From Armatimonadota bacterium (GTDB lineage Bacteria > Armatimonadota > Armatimonadia > Armatimonadales > Armatimonadaceae): DNA of 34,863 nucleotides. Below are positions 2,103-22,603 of the stretch, one piece after another (positions within the stretch are counted from its first letter, which is position 1; each line of letters begins with the position of its first letter). The DNA lies in the NCBI GenBank assembly GCA_026392155.1, contig JAPLCP010000132.1, positions 1 to 34,863 on the forward strand. Reading direction: 5' to 3'. Under the pieces are notes generated by a model. It was not told the DNA's origin and ran no database searches. It saw only the letters and a program-made list of their open reading frames with translations. The translations under genes and the position numbers were made by a program.

Positions 2103-3842
2103 CTACTTCTCCGTGGGAGCCGCCACGTGGCGCATCGTGAAGTTGAGAACATCGCGCAGGTGCTCGTCCCAGTACGGCCAGGTGTGGGCACCATCGAACT
2201 CGGAAAACTCAAACGGGAGGCCCTTTTCCAGAAGACGGCGCTCCATGTCGCGGTTCATCTGGATCAAAAAATCGTCCTTACCACAGTCGAAGTAGAGCGC
2301 CGGGCCACGCCACTCGCCCTTGCTTCCCGTGAGCTTGGCAATTTTCGGCCAGATCGCACCGGTGGTGTACAGTGTGTCGGTGTTGGTGGGGAACATCTTC
2401 TGGACAAAGTTCATGATCGGCTTGCCCTCTCCCCACTCGACCACACCCGAGAGCGATGCTGCTGCGCAGAACTTGGTCGGGTTGTCTATTGCCAGGTGCC
2501 AGGAGCCGTAGCCTCCCATCGAGAGACCGGCTATGGCGCGGCCCTCGCGCTTGTTGATCGTCCGAAACGTGCCCTCCACTTCGGGCATCAGCTCTTTCTC
2601 AAAATAGGTCTGCCAGCTTCCAAAGCCGGGTGAGTTCTGGTAGAACGAGTCGCCCTGGGAGTCAGGGAGCACCACGATCAGCGGCAGGTCGGCCAGATAC
2701 GCGGCGGTTCCGGCGTTCTTGAGCCAGTCCGTGTGCTTCCCAAACGCGCCATGCAGTAAGTACAGCACCGGGTAGCGCTTGGTATTGCCCGACTCCCAGT
2801 ATCCTTTGGGCAGAAGCACGGTGCACGGGACAAACTTGCCCAGCGCCTCCGACTCGATATGGAGTGTGATCGCCGTTTTTCGCGCCACCGCTTTTTGCTC
2901 ATCGGTGACCACGGGCATGAACGGCGGTGGGGTCTGGCCGCGAGGGGTGAACTCGGGAGCGTAGGGCAGGCTGCTGTTTTTCGCTTGGAAGCCTGCGGGT
3001 GGCACCGGGCGCCCCGCCTCTTGCCACGCGCTTTCGAGCAGGCTTGCCAGCGCCACCCCACCCATTTCGAGCCGCCTGATGGCAATCGGCTTGGCTGCGG
3101 GCGTAAAAGCACTCCAGTAGGCATCGCTAAACGTATCCCCCGCCGCCGCCGCACTGGCTTTCTTGTCAATAGCCAGGATAGTGGGAACTTCGTTGATGCT
3201 GGCTTGCAAGATCGAAAACATGGTCGCGACGGAGTCTTTGTCTTTCGTCAGCGAGATTCTGCCTGGCTTCAGCTCGGAATACGCCACGCTTTTCTCCAGC
3301 ATCACGGACTCAAAGCGGGCGTGGATGCCTTTCTGCGAGGGCTCTGAGAGCTGGCCGTCGTAGTTTTCGGTGGCATGAAACGGTACATGGGCATCGCCGA
3401 CATAGTGCGAGAGATAGGCTGCCTGCACCATGGCATCGTCCCAGCGCTTCTCACGCATCGCCATGACCAGCAGGCCGTAGACCCGCCGCACCGTCCACGG
3501 GTTCATGCCATCGCTGCGCAGCTTCATGTAGTCGCTGATCTTTTGGACGGCGGCAAAGTCTTGGGGGATTTTACTGAGATCGGAGCCAAAGCCAAAGCGC
3601 TCGCCGTCTAAAAAATGCCGTCCTGCCTCGGCATGATCGGGCCGGTTGCGCCAGCGATCTGGGTGCGACGAGGAGGCGGCAAACCAGTCTTTATTGAGGA
3701 GCATCAAGGTCTTGAGTGGGGAGGCAGGCAGCGTGTCCACCGCGAGCTTGGCAACATAGGTATGGCCGACTCCGCCCCAGGCATGGGAAACCGAAGCGAC
3801 CGCAACGGTCGCCAAAAGCGAAAAAGCGAGTTTTTTTATCAT
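2103..3842 (-). CDS. Secreted fusion: S1/P1-nuclease or phospholipase C-like domain + esterase (alpha/beta hydrolase)
   Basis: This 579-residue, two-domain exported protein has a signal peptide (1-21) that would be cut to leave W22 at the mature N-terminus. An N-terminal Trp is itself a zinc ligand in S1/P1 nucleases and bacterial phospholipase C. Further putative ligands are H27 (VGH), D62 (HPDRW), H76 (RHFLD), H146, D150 and H156 (SHYVGDAHVPFH), and H174/E178 (HARFE). From about residue 325 an esterase-D/feruloyl-esterase-like alpha/beta hydrolase follows. It has YLLHG, nucleophile S441 in GLSMGGYGS, acid around D523, and H553 in DGAHTWPYW. Either domain alone is common, but their fusion is unusual. 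It overlaps the upstream gene by ATGA (3839-3842). Substrates are inferred: phosphodiesters for the first domain, carboxylic esters for the second. Confidence 0.88.
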   Translation of the reverse strand: MIKKLAFSLLATVAVASVSHAWGGVGHTYVAKLAVDTLPASPLKTLMLLNKDWFAASSSHPDRWRNRPDHAEAGRHFLDGERFGFGSDLSKIPQDFAAVQKISDYMKLRSDGMNPWTVRRVYGLLVMAMREKRWDDAMVQAAYLSHYVGDAHVPFHATENYDGQLSEPSQKGIHARFESVMLEKSVAYSELKPGRISLTKDKDSVATMFSILQASINEVPTILAIDKKASAAAAGDTFSDAYWSAFTPAAKPIAIRRLEMGGVALASLLESAWQEAGRPVPPAGFQAKNSSLPYAPEFTPRGQTPPPFMPVVTDEQKAVARKTAITLHIESEALGKFVPCTVLLPKGYWESGNTKRYPVLYLLHGAFGKHTDWLKNAGTAAYLADLPLIVVLPDSQGDSFYQNSPGFGSWQTYFEKELMPEVEGTFRTINKREGRAIAGLSMGGYGSWHLAIDNPTKFCAAASLSGVVEWGEGKPIMNFVQKMFPTNTDTLYTTGAIWPKIAKLTGSKGEWRGPALYFDCGKDDFLIQMNRDMERRLLEKGLPFEFSEFDGAHTWPYWDEHLRDVLNFTMRHVAAPTEK

Positions 3843-8374: not shown

Positions 8375-8393
8375 AACGAGCCTCGTCCCTCGG

Positions 8394-8450
8394 CTACAAA
8401 GGCCGTTCCGGCCATACCGAATTTTCTCATGGCCGGAACGGCCTTTGTAG
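8394..8450. repeat. Perfect 22-bp inverted repeat, REP-like candidate
   Basis: The arms 8394-8415 (beginning CTACAAAGGCCG) and 8429-8450 (ending CGGCCTTTGTAG) are exact reverse complements over 22 bp. They are separated by a 13-nt AT-rich loop (8416-8428). This is far stronger than a normal terminator and has no coding role. It could be a REP/BIME-type dispersed repeat or a very strong mRNA stabilising or terminating stem between the zinc-ribbon gene and deoB. Confidence 0.8.
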
Positions 8451-8465
8451 CGCCGCGCTCTCCAG

Positions 8466-8499: not shown

Positions 8500-9636
8500 A
8501 TGCGTCGTTTTTTCTTGATCGTTCTCGATGGCTGTGGCTGTGGCGAGCTCCCTGATGCGCTTGACTATGGGGCGGGCGATCTGGGCTCCCACACGCTTGC
8601 CAATACCGCAAAGGCCGTGGGTGGCGTGCGCTTGCCTACTCTGGAGCGGCTCGGTCTAGGGAATCTTGCCGAGCTGGCCGGGGTTGCGGCGATTCCCGAT
8701 GCGCCAAGCCACTGGGGGCGACTGGCAGAAATCAGCAAGGGCAAGGACACGGTCACGGGCCACTGGGAGATGATGGGCGTGATTACCAATCCCGCGTTTC
8801 CGATCTACCCCAACGGCTTCCCAAATGACCTAATCGCAGCTTATGAGGCGGCGATTGGCACCAAAACCCTGGGGCACTACCCGGCATCCGGAACGGAGAT
8901 TCTGAGGCAGCTTGGCGAGGAGCATCTGCGCACGGGCTATCCCATTGTCTACACATCGGCGGACTCGGTCTTTCAAGTGGCGGCGCACGAGACACACTTT
9001 GGGCTGGCGCGGCTCTACCAAATCTGCGAGATTGCGCGGGCGACCCTGCCGCTCTGCCGGGTGATCGCACGGCCTTTTGTGGGCGAAAGCAGCGAGACAT
9101 TTCGGCGCACCGAGAATCGCAAAGACTGGCCCCTGCCGCCGCCTCACCCCACCACGCTCGACCGGCTCTCGGAAGCGGGCAAGAGAGTGCACTTTATCGG
9201 CAAGACCTGCGAGCTGTTCCCCGAAGCGCCTGACCAGCGCCGTGAGCTGACGACCAACAACCCCGCCCACTGCGCCGCGCTGGTAAATGCCGTTCAGCAC
9301 TCCGACGCGGACTTTATCTTCGCCAACCTCGAAGACTTCGACATGCTCTATGGCCACCGCAACGACCCGGTCGGCTTTGCAAGATTACTGGAGGAGCTCG
9401 ATGCGTGGCTCGGCGCGGACTTTCTGCCACACCTGCGCCCTGGTGATCTCGTCGGAATCACCGCAGACCACGGCAACGACCCCACCACGCCCTCCACCGA
9501 TCACAGCCGCGAGTATGTCCCGCTACTGCTCTTCGGCCCCAGCATCACCGCCCCACAAAACCTCGGCGATATTCCCTGTTTTAATTGGTGGAGCGATGCA
9601 CTTCTGAGGTATCTTGTAGACGGAGAGATGCCTTGA
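8500..9636 (+). CDS. deoB: Phosphopentomutase DeoB
   Basis: This 378-residue alkaline-phosphatase-superfamily enzyme interconverts (deoxy)ribose-1-phosphate and (deoxy)ribose-5-phosphate in nucleoside salvage. Metal and active-site features are visible: D10 in FFLIVLDGCGCGE, the phosphorylatable Thr (T84) in GKDTVTGHWE, NLEDFDMLYGHRND, and the C-terminal TADHGNDPTTPSTDHSREYVP. Length is close to the family norm of about 390. It is the first gene of a three-gene chain: its stop overlaps the TTG start of the lipoprotein nuclease as TTGA. The context suggests it processes deoxyribose-1-phosphate from DNA taken from outside. The enzyme call is firm; the nutrient-DNA role is inference. Confidence 0.95.
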   Translation: MRRFFLIVLDGCGCGELPDALDYGAGDLGSHTLANTAKAVGGVRLPTLERLGLGNLAELAGVAAIPDAPSHWGRLAEISKGKDTVTGHWEMMGVITNPAFPIYPNGFPNDLIAAYEAAIGTKTLGHYPASGTEILRQLGEEHLRTGYPIVYTSADSVFQVAAHETHFGLARLYQICEIARATLPLCRVIARPFVGESSETFRRTENRKDWPLPPPHPTTLDRLSEAGKRVHFIGKTCELFPEAPDQRRELTTNNPAHCAALVNAVQHSDADFIFANLEDFDMLYGHRNDPVGFARLLEELDAWLGADFLPHLRPGDLVGITADHGNDPTTPSTDHSREYVPLLLFGPSITAPQNLGDIPCFNWWSDALLRYLVDGEMP

Positions 9637-10631
9637 AACGCTATATTTTCTGTTTGCCTCTAATAGGTCTGTTCCTCACAGGCTGCCCTAAGTCTGCACC
9701 GCCGCCGCCGCCGAGCACGACGATAACAAACAGCCGTCCGGCGAACTCAAAGCCGGGGGATCTTTTGGGGAAGTCTTCGCAGCCTTCGTCGGGAGGCGCA
9801 AGTGCCACTGCCGACGATCCCCTGACGGTTCTGGGCAACCCAGACGACGCCACGGAGTCGCCGCGCAACCAAGATCACTTTCTGATGGCGCGGCCTCAGA
9901 TGACGCTCTCTTATAACAACACGCTTCGCTTTCCCAACTGGGTCGCCTGGCACTTAAAAGCAGGTGATATTGGGGAGGCGGAGCGCAGCAACTTTATCCC
10001 TGACCCGAATCTGCCCGCAGGGTTTGAGGCCATCACCACACGCGACTACAGTGGCTCTGGCTATGACCGTGGTCATAACTGCCCCAGCAAAGATCGCACA
10101 GCGAGTGCCGAAGATAACCAGGTGGTGTTCTACATGACCAACATCACCCCGCAGTTTCACGAGATGAACGGTGGTCCTTGGGAATCTTTGGAGTCCTACT
10201 GTCGCAAGCTCGCACAGGAGGGCAATGAGCTCTATATTCTCTGTGGCCACGGTTTTGAAAACAAGCGCTTCAAGACCATCGGAAAAGATGATATCGCGGT
10301 GCCGGACTTTGGCTGGAAAGTCGTGCTCGTGCTCCCCGAAAAAAGTGGCGATGATCGGGCACGCATAGATGAAAACACGCGGGTGATCGCCGTTAAGATG
10401 GAGAATACCAAGAGCATCTCGGGGCCTTGGGATAACTTTATTACGACGGCGGCGGAGCTGGAGCAAGCCACGGGGCTTCGGTTCTTCAAGGGCTTGCCGG
10501 ACTCGGTTGCCACTGCACTAAAACAAAAGCGTGATGAGGGAGTCAATAGCTTCACGTCGGGGCCGGGTGGTTTTAAGAAAAGCAATCGGCGCAGCAGTGG
10601 CGGCAGCTTTGGCTCAGGAGGGCGACGATGA
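9633..10631 (+). CDS. Lipoprotein DNA/RNA non-specific endonuclease (NucA/Serratia type)
   Basis: This 332-residue protein starts at TTG 9633, where the start overlaps the deoB stop (TTGA) and GGAGAG sits just upstream. An upstream ATG at 9585 would put 16 residues ahead of the signal peptide, so it is rejected. The signal peptide KRYIFCLPLIGLFLTGC has lipobox LTGC with C18, predicting a lipid anchor. A Pro/Ser-rich linker leads to the beta-beta-alpha-metal nuclease domain. It has the DRGH motif (D145-H148, H148 catalytic) in GYDRGHNCPSKDRT and the metal-binding Asn in FYMTNITPQ. The tail is basic and Gly/Ser-rich (KKSNRRSSGGSFGSGGRR). Its stop overlaps the inhibitor start by ATGA. It probably degrades extracellular or periplasmic nucleic acid. 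Confidence 0.92.
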   Translation: MKRYIFCLPLIGLFLTGCPKSAPPPPPSTTITNSRPANSKPGDLLGKSSQPSSGGASATADDPLTVLGNPDDATESPRNQDHFLMARPQMTLSYNNTLRFPNWVAWHLKAGDIGEAERSNFIPDPNLPAGFEAITTRDYSGSGYDRGHNCPSKDRTASAEDNQVVFYMTNITPQFHEMNGGPWESLESYCRKLAQEGNELYILCGHGFENKRFKTIGKDDIAVPDFGWKVVLVLPEKSGDDRARIDENTRVIAVKMENTKSISGPWDNFITTAAELEQATGLRFFKGLPDSVATALKQKRDEGVNSFTSGPGGFKKSNRRSSGGSFGSGGRR

Positions 10632-11017
10632 GTCTTTTAAGCGAGCTTCGTAGCGCCGTGCGTGGACTGATTTTCATGAGTGAGTCGGACGCGCCGCTCA
10701 AGCCCTTTGTCTGGAAAGGCGTGGTGATTGACTCGGCGGCGGCGCTGCTGACACACCTGGAAAAAGATGCCACCCTACCGGTTCAGGAAGTGGCATTAGA
10801 GAAGTTCTTCGCCCCGATGACCACGCCCCAAAGCGGGGATGACGACGAAGCCAAGGCAGATCGCGTGCGCTTCCAGGCACTGGTCGCTCAGCTCGCCACG
10901 CTGACCGAGACGCGTGTCTTTCGGCTAGGTTCCGGGCCGGAGATCACGGTCTATGTGGTGGGAAAGACCCACGACGGTAGCGCCGCCGGGGTCTCCACAC
11001 AGCTCACGGAAACCTAA
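10628..11017 (+). CDS. NuiA-like nuclease inhibitor
   Basis: The 129-residue protein has no signal peptide and so is probably cytosolic. It has the pattern of the cyanobacterial NucA inhibitor NuiA: an N-terminal helix ending GLIFMSESDAP, then PFVWKGVV, EKFFAPMTTPQ, RVFRLGSG, VYVVGKTHDGSAAGVSTQLTET. In the Anabaena NucA-NuiA complex, a Glu of the MSES segment and the C-terminal Thr reach the nuclease active site. The equivalents here are E19 and the final T129. It overlaps the nuclease gene by 4 bp (ATGA), so enzyme and inhibitor are translationally coupled. It would guard the cell against nuclease not yet exported. The family match is from memory of NuiA sequence features; pairing is seen directly. 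Confidence 0.88.
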   Translation: MSLLSELRSAVRGLIFMSESDAPLKPFVWKGVVIDSAAALLTHLEKDATLPVQEVALEKFFAPMTTPQSGDDDEAKADRVRFQALVAQLATLTETRVFRLGSGPEITVYVVGKTHDGSAAGVSTQLTET

Positions 11018-21802: not shown

Positions 21803-22603
21803 ATGCCCTCCCCCTTTCCCGGCATGGATCCCTACTTAGAAAACCCATCCCAATGGCGGGGCGTACACCAGCGCTTGTTAACGGCCCTCACGCAGCTCCT
21901 CAATACGGACTTACCAGCGGGTCTCTATGCCGATTCCGAAGACCGTGTCATCGTTTCTCCTGGCAGAAATATCTATCCTGATGTCGGCGTTCTTCGGTTC
22001 GGCACCGCTCCCAATCGCCCCTTAGACTCAGGACGTGGTGGGGTGGCAACACTCCTCGAGACAAGTGCAGACCCTTCCTTCTATGTGCGTCATGAGACAC
22101 AACCACCCCAGCAACAGATCACCATCCGGACGGTGGACAGTAAGGAGCTCGTGGCAGTCATTGAGCTACTGAGCCCTACCAACAAGCGTCGAGGAAAAGA
22201 TCGCGAGGAGTATCTTGCAAAGCAAGCGGAGCTTCTGGCAAGTGATGTTCATCTGATCGAGATAGACCTTCTTCGTGAAGGTGCGCACTCCGTGGCGGTG
22301 TCTCAAGAGGACATTCAGACACGTGGTGAGAGCGATTATGTGGTCTGCCTACACTACGGAGGCAGTGGCGAAGAGTTCGAGTTCTGGCTGAGTACACTTC
22401 GCCAGCGGCTACCACGCATCCGCATTCCTCTCACCGATGGCCTCCCGGACCAAATCCTCGACCTCCAGCGTGCTCTTGACCAAGCCTACGACAGTGGCCC
22501 ACACCGACGTGGCACCGACTACCGCCTCGCTCCCATCCCTCCCCTCTCAGAAACCGACGCTGACTGGGCCGATAGCCTCCTACGAAACGCAGGGCTCCGA
22601 TGA
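21803..22603 (+). CDS. DUF4058 family protein
   Basis: This 266-residue protein has the hallmark start PFPGMDPYLE (4-13), then IYPDVGV and the central AVIELLSPTNKRRGKDREEYLAKQAELL block (as AVIELLSPTNK, then GKDREEY.AKQAELL). VHLIEIDLLREGAH, YVVCLHYGG and a C-terminal ALDQAYDSGPHRRGTDY follow. DUF4058 is common in cyanobacteria and planctomycete-like genomes; no function is established. The E-x-SPTNK ... K arrangement is reminiscent of PD-(D/E)XK folds, as in Uma2-type proteins, but I cannot confirm this. The stop overlaps the next gene start as ATGA. Confidence 0.88.
   Translation: MPSPFPGMDPYLENPSQWRGVHQRLLTALTQLLNTDLPAGLYADSEDRVIVSPGRNIYPDVGVLRFGTAPNRPLDSGRGGVATLLETSADPSFYVRHETQPPQQQITIRTVDSKELVAVIELLSPTNKRRGKDREEYLAKQAELLASDVHLIEIDLLREGAHSVAVSQEDIQTRGESDYVVCLHYGGSGEEFEFWLSTLRQRLPRIRIPLTDGLPDQILDLQRALDQAYDSGPHRRGTDYRLAPIPPLSETDADWADSLLRNAGLR

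Follow-up and report, generated by a model that had tools for sequence, protein, structure and literature searches.

The window analysed here, a stretch of 34,863 nucleotides from an Armatimonadota bacterium (contig JAPLCP010000132.1), encodes a non-specific nuclease of the NucA type directly followed by a NuiA-type inhibitor, and this nuclease-inhibitor pair is real and conserved. The phosphopentomutase gene deoB, which overlaps the nuclease gene on its upstream side, is not part of the conserved pair. Very probably, the nuclease is secreted, the inhibitor is synthesised right after it and stays in the cytoplasm, where it disarms enzyme that has not yet been exported, and the attachment to deoB is a recent event at the level of the genus.

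Three overlapping genes

All three genes are on the forward strand. The first, deoB (8500..9636; ATG at 8500, stop codon at 9634-9636), encodes a phosphopentomutase of 378 residues, which passes the TIGR01696 equivalog model (352.3 bits, cut-off 341.2) and matches NF003766 (404.9 bits, cut-off 256) and PF01676. The nuclease gene (9633..10631) starts with a TTG at 9633, ends with a stop codon at 10629-10631, and encodes 332 residues. Its product belongs to the DNA/RNA non-specific endonucleases (PF01223, E 3.5e-48, 164.6 bits against 23), and its best match among solved structures is Anabaena NucA (2o3b_A, E 5.4e-54), with EXOG (1e-24) and the Serratia nuclease (9e-21) both far behind. Read from the TTG, the N terminus is MKRYIFCLPLIGLFLTGC; the leader, judged by eye, is hydrophobic and contains the lipobox LTGC18 (LAGC in the congener G001). 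The protein is predicted to carry an export signal and to be a lipoprotein. As the initial annotation had it, the lipobox cysteine is at position 18 and a DRGH motif is present. The motif lies at residues 145-148, and the active-site set is complete (R118, D145-R146-G147-H148, N179, E187, R191). We take R118, D145, R146, H148, N179, E187, and R191 to have the roles of NucA R93, D121, R122, H124, N155, E163, and R167, respectively. Besides Cys18, the mature nuclease contains cysteines at 150, 190, and 204, none of which is invariant across the family.

The inhibitor gene (10628..11017; ATG at 10628, stop codon at 11015-11017) encodes a protein of 129 residues that is predicted to be cytoplasmic. 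It matches PF07924 over residues 3-129 of 129 (E 7e-32, 110.9 bits against a gathering score of 22.1) and the solved NuiA structure 2o3b_B (E 1.3e-18). The Foldseek search with its AlphaFold model (pLDDT 71) returned 2o3b_B as top match (TM 0.88, rmsd 1.8) and 1j57 as second. Nuclease and inhibitor thus match the two partner chains, A and B respectively, of one solved structure, 2o3b. The MSES segment is found at 17-20, and Glu19 within it aligns with NuiA Glu24; the C-terminal end is Glu128-Thr129, with Thr129 aligning with Thr135, the last residue of NuiA. All 17 aligned NuiA homologues, which come from the phylum, Hymenobacter, and cyanobacteria, share Glu19, Glu128, and Thr129 without exception. 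None of the 17 extends past the threonine, and every intact end stops exactly at Glu-Thr. The family and fold matches place the third protein firmly in the NuiA family, as had been proposed from its MSES segment and C-terminal threonine, and the two residues named as key at that time, Glu19 and Thr129, are among the invariant ones. NuiA Glu24 and Thr135 presumably act at the nuclease active site.

The reported overlaps of the three genes were confirmed with all their coordinates. The nuclease start codon and the deoB stop codon share TTGA (9633..9636), and the inhibitor start and the nuclease stop share ATGA (10628..10631). Stretches resembling ribosome-binding sites precede the nuclease TTG (GGAGAG) and the inhibitor ATG (AGGAGG, just upstream). 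In the sister species G001, from the same genus, the TTG start and both overlaps are the same and the Shine-Dalgarno-like stretches are similar, whereas protein identity between the two species is down to 89% (DeoB), 78% (nuclease), and 57% (inhibitor). Because they were kept despite this divergence, the overlaps are not due to chance. Short overlaps of neighbouring genes are common in the window (e.g. at 22600-22603 and 13182), and an overlap alone would therefore not prove functional coupling. A scan with promoter and terminator consensus sequences found no consensus promoter, the consensus being uninformative for this phylum.

Between the window and G001, dN is 0.07 for deoB, 0.11 for the nuclease domain, and 0.38 for the inhibitor, and dN/dS is about 0.08, 0.08, and 0.31, respectively, with synonymous sites near saturation. 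These values indicate that the inhibitor is under purifying selection, yet is the fastest-changing of the three.

Distribution and gene order of the pair

In a phylum survey of 291 genomes, NuiA was found in 13 genomes, and a NucA-type nuclease (counted at E<1e-50 against the nuclease of the window) in exactly the same 13. Six more genomes lack NuiA and have only remote relatives of the nuclease (E 1e-4 to 1e-31). If the genomes were independent, two identical sets of 13 would have a chance probability of about 8e-23, a value that overstates the case because the genomes are related. The protein distances of nuclease and inhibitor correlate as well (r 0.475, reached in 0 of 5000 shuffles), which is weak evidence, the shared species phylogeny still being included in this figure. 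The claim that the nuclease is paired with a NuiA-type inhibitor is thus borne out by genuine homologues of both proteins that occur in the same genomes and are usually adjacent.

The 13 genomes contain 14 NuiA genes, nine of which adjoin a nuclease gene. Four are co-directional with, overlap, and lie behind the nuclease gene (the window genome G000, G001, G007, and G008); this overlap reads ATGA in G008 and TGATG in G007. Five are adjacent and convergent (G022, G029, G060, G068, G200), and two more are convergent with one gene in between (G036, G052). The NuiA gene of G086 is about 4.7 kb away from the nuclease gene on the same contig, and two NuiA genes are unlinked to it (G003 and the second copy of G060). 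The coupling of the two genes is therefore not obligatory, the inhibitor gene having moved away in G003 and in the second pair of G060. In a plasmid collection, 21 of 22 nuiA records are adjacent to and convergent with nucA (tail to tail), and all 22 are cyanobacterial; for the 22nd, on a Pseudanabaena plasmid, no nuclease is annotated nearby. The usual layout is thus convergent, and the co-directional overlapping layout is the variant of one clade. A single clade (support 99/97) unites the nucleases of the four co-directional cases, and this layout therefore probably arose once. The co-directional clade is not apparent from the inhibitor tree alone, which is poorly resolved, with a single starred branch.

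For cyanobacteria and Bacteroidota, the sample consisted mainly of plasmids. A scan of the contig collection with the inhibitor returned one relative only, in Hymenobacter, and the viral contigs and phages scanned contained no inhibitor relatives. The relative in Hymenobacter sp. BT770 (L043:3542-4372) is a fusion with the NuiA domain (PF07924, E 2.2e-33) C-terminal to a HIT domain (PF01230, E 1.6e-18), and a NucA-type lipoprotein-like nuclease is encoded convergently at a distance of 1.2 kb. The NucA-like nucleases on plasmids of Hymenobacter tibetensis (L092:3446-4765) and Spirosoma rhododendri (L093:3938-4762) have no annotated inhibitor nearby.

Several homologues in the phylum deviate from the pair in the window. 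The NuiA homologue of G036 (L077:7904-8380) has a signal-peptide-like N terminus, MRPFFALFGLILASLTPANA, which suggests an exported inhibitor, and thus not every NuiA need be cytoplasmic. The unlinked nuiA of G003 (L082:3956-5995 region) follows a gene resembling that of sigma-54 (RpoN, recognised by eye) by a few bases, and nuiA of G086 follows a gene resembling an M42 peptidase, also by a few bases. In the G008 nuclease (L074:2202-3314), DRGH is replaced by SRGH and the lipobox cysteine is missing; its C-terminal VWVNT.SG.Y extension is present in the nuclease of G022 as well.

Linkage of deoB to the pair

Of 61 sampled genomes, 42 gave a DeoB match, which was marginal in a few, and nine genomes (G000, G001, G003, G007, G008, G022, G036, G052, G060) have strong matches to DeoB, nuclease, and NuiA. 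Among these nine, each with all three genes located, deoB adjoins the pair in the window genome and its congener G001 alone; the two species, which belong to one genus, share both overlaps and the flanking genes. In the other seven, deoB is on a contig other than that of the pair, for example beside a lepA-like gene (by eye) in G007. In three genomes outside the 61-genome sample (G068, G086, G200), the regions fetched around the pair contain no deoB. The operon of deoB, nuclease, and nuiA is therefore a genus-level arrangement, known from the window and one sampled congener. The initial annotation had expected the order of all three genes to recur in other genomes, which holds for nuclease and NuiA but fails for deoB outside the genus.

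Function of the pair

The biology of related enzymes provides the background for how the pair may work. Nucleases of the NucA type are secreted and cut without specificity. Induced expression of NucA lacking the signal peptide is lethal to Synechocystis, and NuiA was included to counter leaky production of the nuclease (PMC4890671). The NucA-NuiA pair has a pKd of 11.49 (PMC5374557), and residue 121 of one partner has been inferred to be hydrogen-bonded to residue 24 of the other, with the protein labels apparently swapped (PMC5374557). The nuclease of the window would be exported via Sec as a lipoprotein and cut DNA and RNA outside the cytoplasm. The inhibitor would stay in the cytoplasm and plug the active site; by homology, Glu19 would lie close to the catalytic Asp145, and Thr129, as the free C terminus, at the metal. 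In this way the inhibitor would disarm any nuclease that folds before export. The overlapping start and stop codons could ensure that the inhibitor is synthesised right after the nuclease from a shared mRNA. By its attachment to deoB, probably a recent, genus-level event, the pair may have acquired the expression of deoB. Use of external DNA would be a possible, secondary role. That the inhibitor protects the cell from its own secreted nuclease has already been published for NucA/NuiA.

It had been proposed that the three genes constitute a dedicated DNA-scavenging operon, in which the surface nuclease digests external DNA, the nucleosides are imported, DeoB is co-induced for the conversion of deoxyribose-1-phosphate, and the inhibitor protects the cell itself. 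The three genes do overlap in two species that clearly differ in sequence, genes for DeoC, a PNP-family protein, and a pyrimidine phosphorylase are present in the genome, and NucA-type nucleases are believed to have a role in nutrition and, in some cases, to act as bacteriocides (PMC4890671). However, the DeoC, phosphorylase, and PNP genes are scattered on other contigs, a search for the CNT family found no CNT nucleoside transporter in either species, and the enzyme family cuts RNA too. The separation of deoB from the pair in the seven other genomes does not agree with a unit of three, and we regard such an operon as possible but doubtful. A nutritional use of DNA as such is plausible. It is unlikely that the NucA-NuiA pair was recruited into deoxynucleoside salvage behind deoB, with the ATGA coupling setting the inhibitor dose and the whole being regulated as a nutrient-acquisition operon.

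The combination of a secreted nuclease with a tight, specific inhibitor would also fit a toxin-immunity pair directed against competitors or serving plasmid maintenance. The pair is found on plasmids in many cyanobacteria, a count that cannot show enrichment because the collection holds plasmids only, and the inhibitor, judged by dN, changes more quickly than the nuclease domain. However, the nuclease is a lipoprotein of a single domain and has no delivery or polymorphic-toxin domain, the window genome has one copy each of nuclease and inhibitor gene in an ordinary gene setting, and the dN/dS of the inhibitor is in the purifying range. Such a function is thus improbable. That the inhibitor no longer acts on the nuclease of the window and has another partner, as the separate nuiA genes of G003 and G086 and the fusion to a HIT domain in Hymenobacter might suggest, is very hard to reconcile with the perfect co-occurrence with the nuclease, the invariant contact residues, and the conserved overlap.

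Comparison with known systems

The closest known system is NucA-NuiA of Anabaena/Trichormus (PDB 2o3b, 1zm8, 1j57). The nucleases belong to the same family and have the same catalytic residues, the inhibitors share the family, the glutamate of MSES, and the C-terminal Glu-Thr, and the genes are side by side. The leader of the Trichormus nuclease is lipobox-like (IVGC), as is that of the window nuclease. In contrast to Anabaena/Trichormus NucA, the window nuclease has a long Pro/Ser linker and a basic Gly/Ser-rich tail, and while the cyanobacterial nucA and nuiA are convergent, the genes of the window are co-directional with an ATGA overlap and lie behind deoB. Bacillus NucA/Nin similarly consists of a non-specific nuclease gene next to the gene of a proteinaceous inhibitor, both proteins being unrelated in sequence to Anabaena NucA/NuiA (PMC5758888). 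The nuclease of Serratia marcescens (PF01223) is secreted and belongs to the same superfamily, but has no NuiA; inside the cell it remains inactive for lack of its disulfides, which form only outside (PMC8924478).

The pair is ordinary in kind; its layout is unusual, being co-directional and overlapping and, in one genus, placed behind deoB. With this pair, the known range of NucA-NuiA widens beyond cyanobacteria to another phylum of bacteria, and the exact co-occurrence across 291 genomes supports NuiA as the dedicated partner of the NucA-type nuclease. In addition, one clade with an overlapping co-directional layout against the usual convergent one is a clean case in which the role of translational coupling in self-protection could be tested.

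Other elements in the window

About 6 kb from the pair, the reverse strand encodes a protein (2106-3842) with an S1/P1-nuclease-like domain (PF02265, E 1.8e-10, residues 22-271) fused to an esterase domain (PF00756, E 5e-27). It has a signal-peptide-like start and might be a second secreted nuclease or phosphoesterase. The 165-nt gap before deoB folds far better than shuffled sequence (z -9) and contains, outside the operon, a repetitive palindromic element with a 23-bp hairpin (8385..8455, unstranded). This hairpin family has dozens of copies per genome, with 74 matches (both orientations) in the window genome and 52 in the congener.
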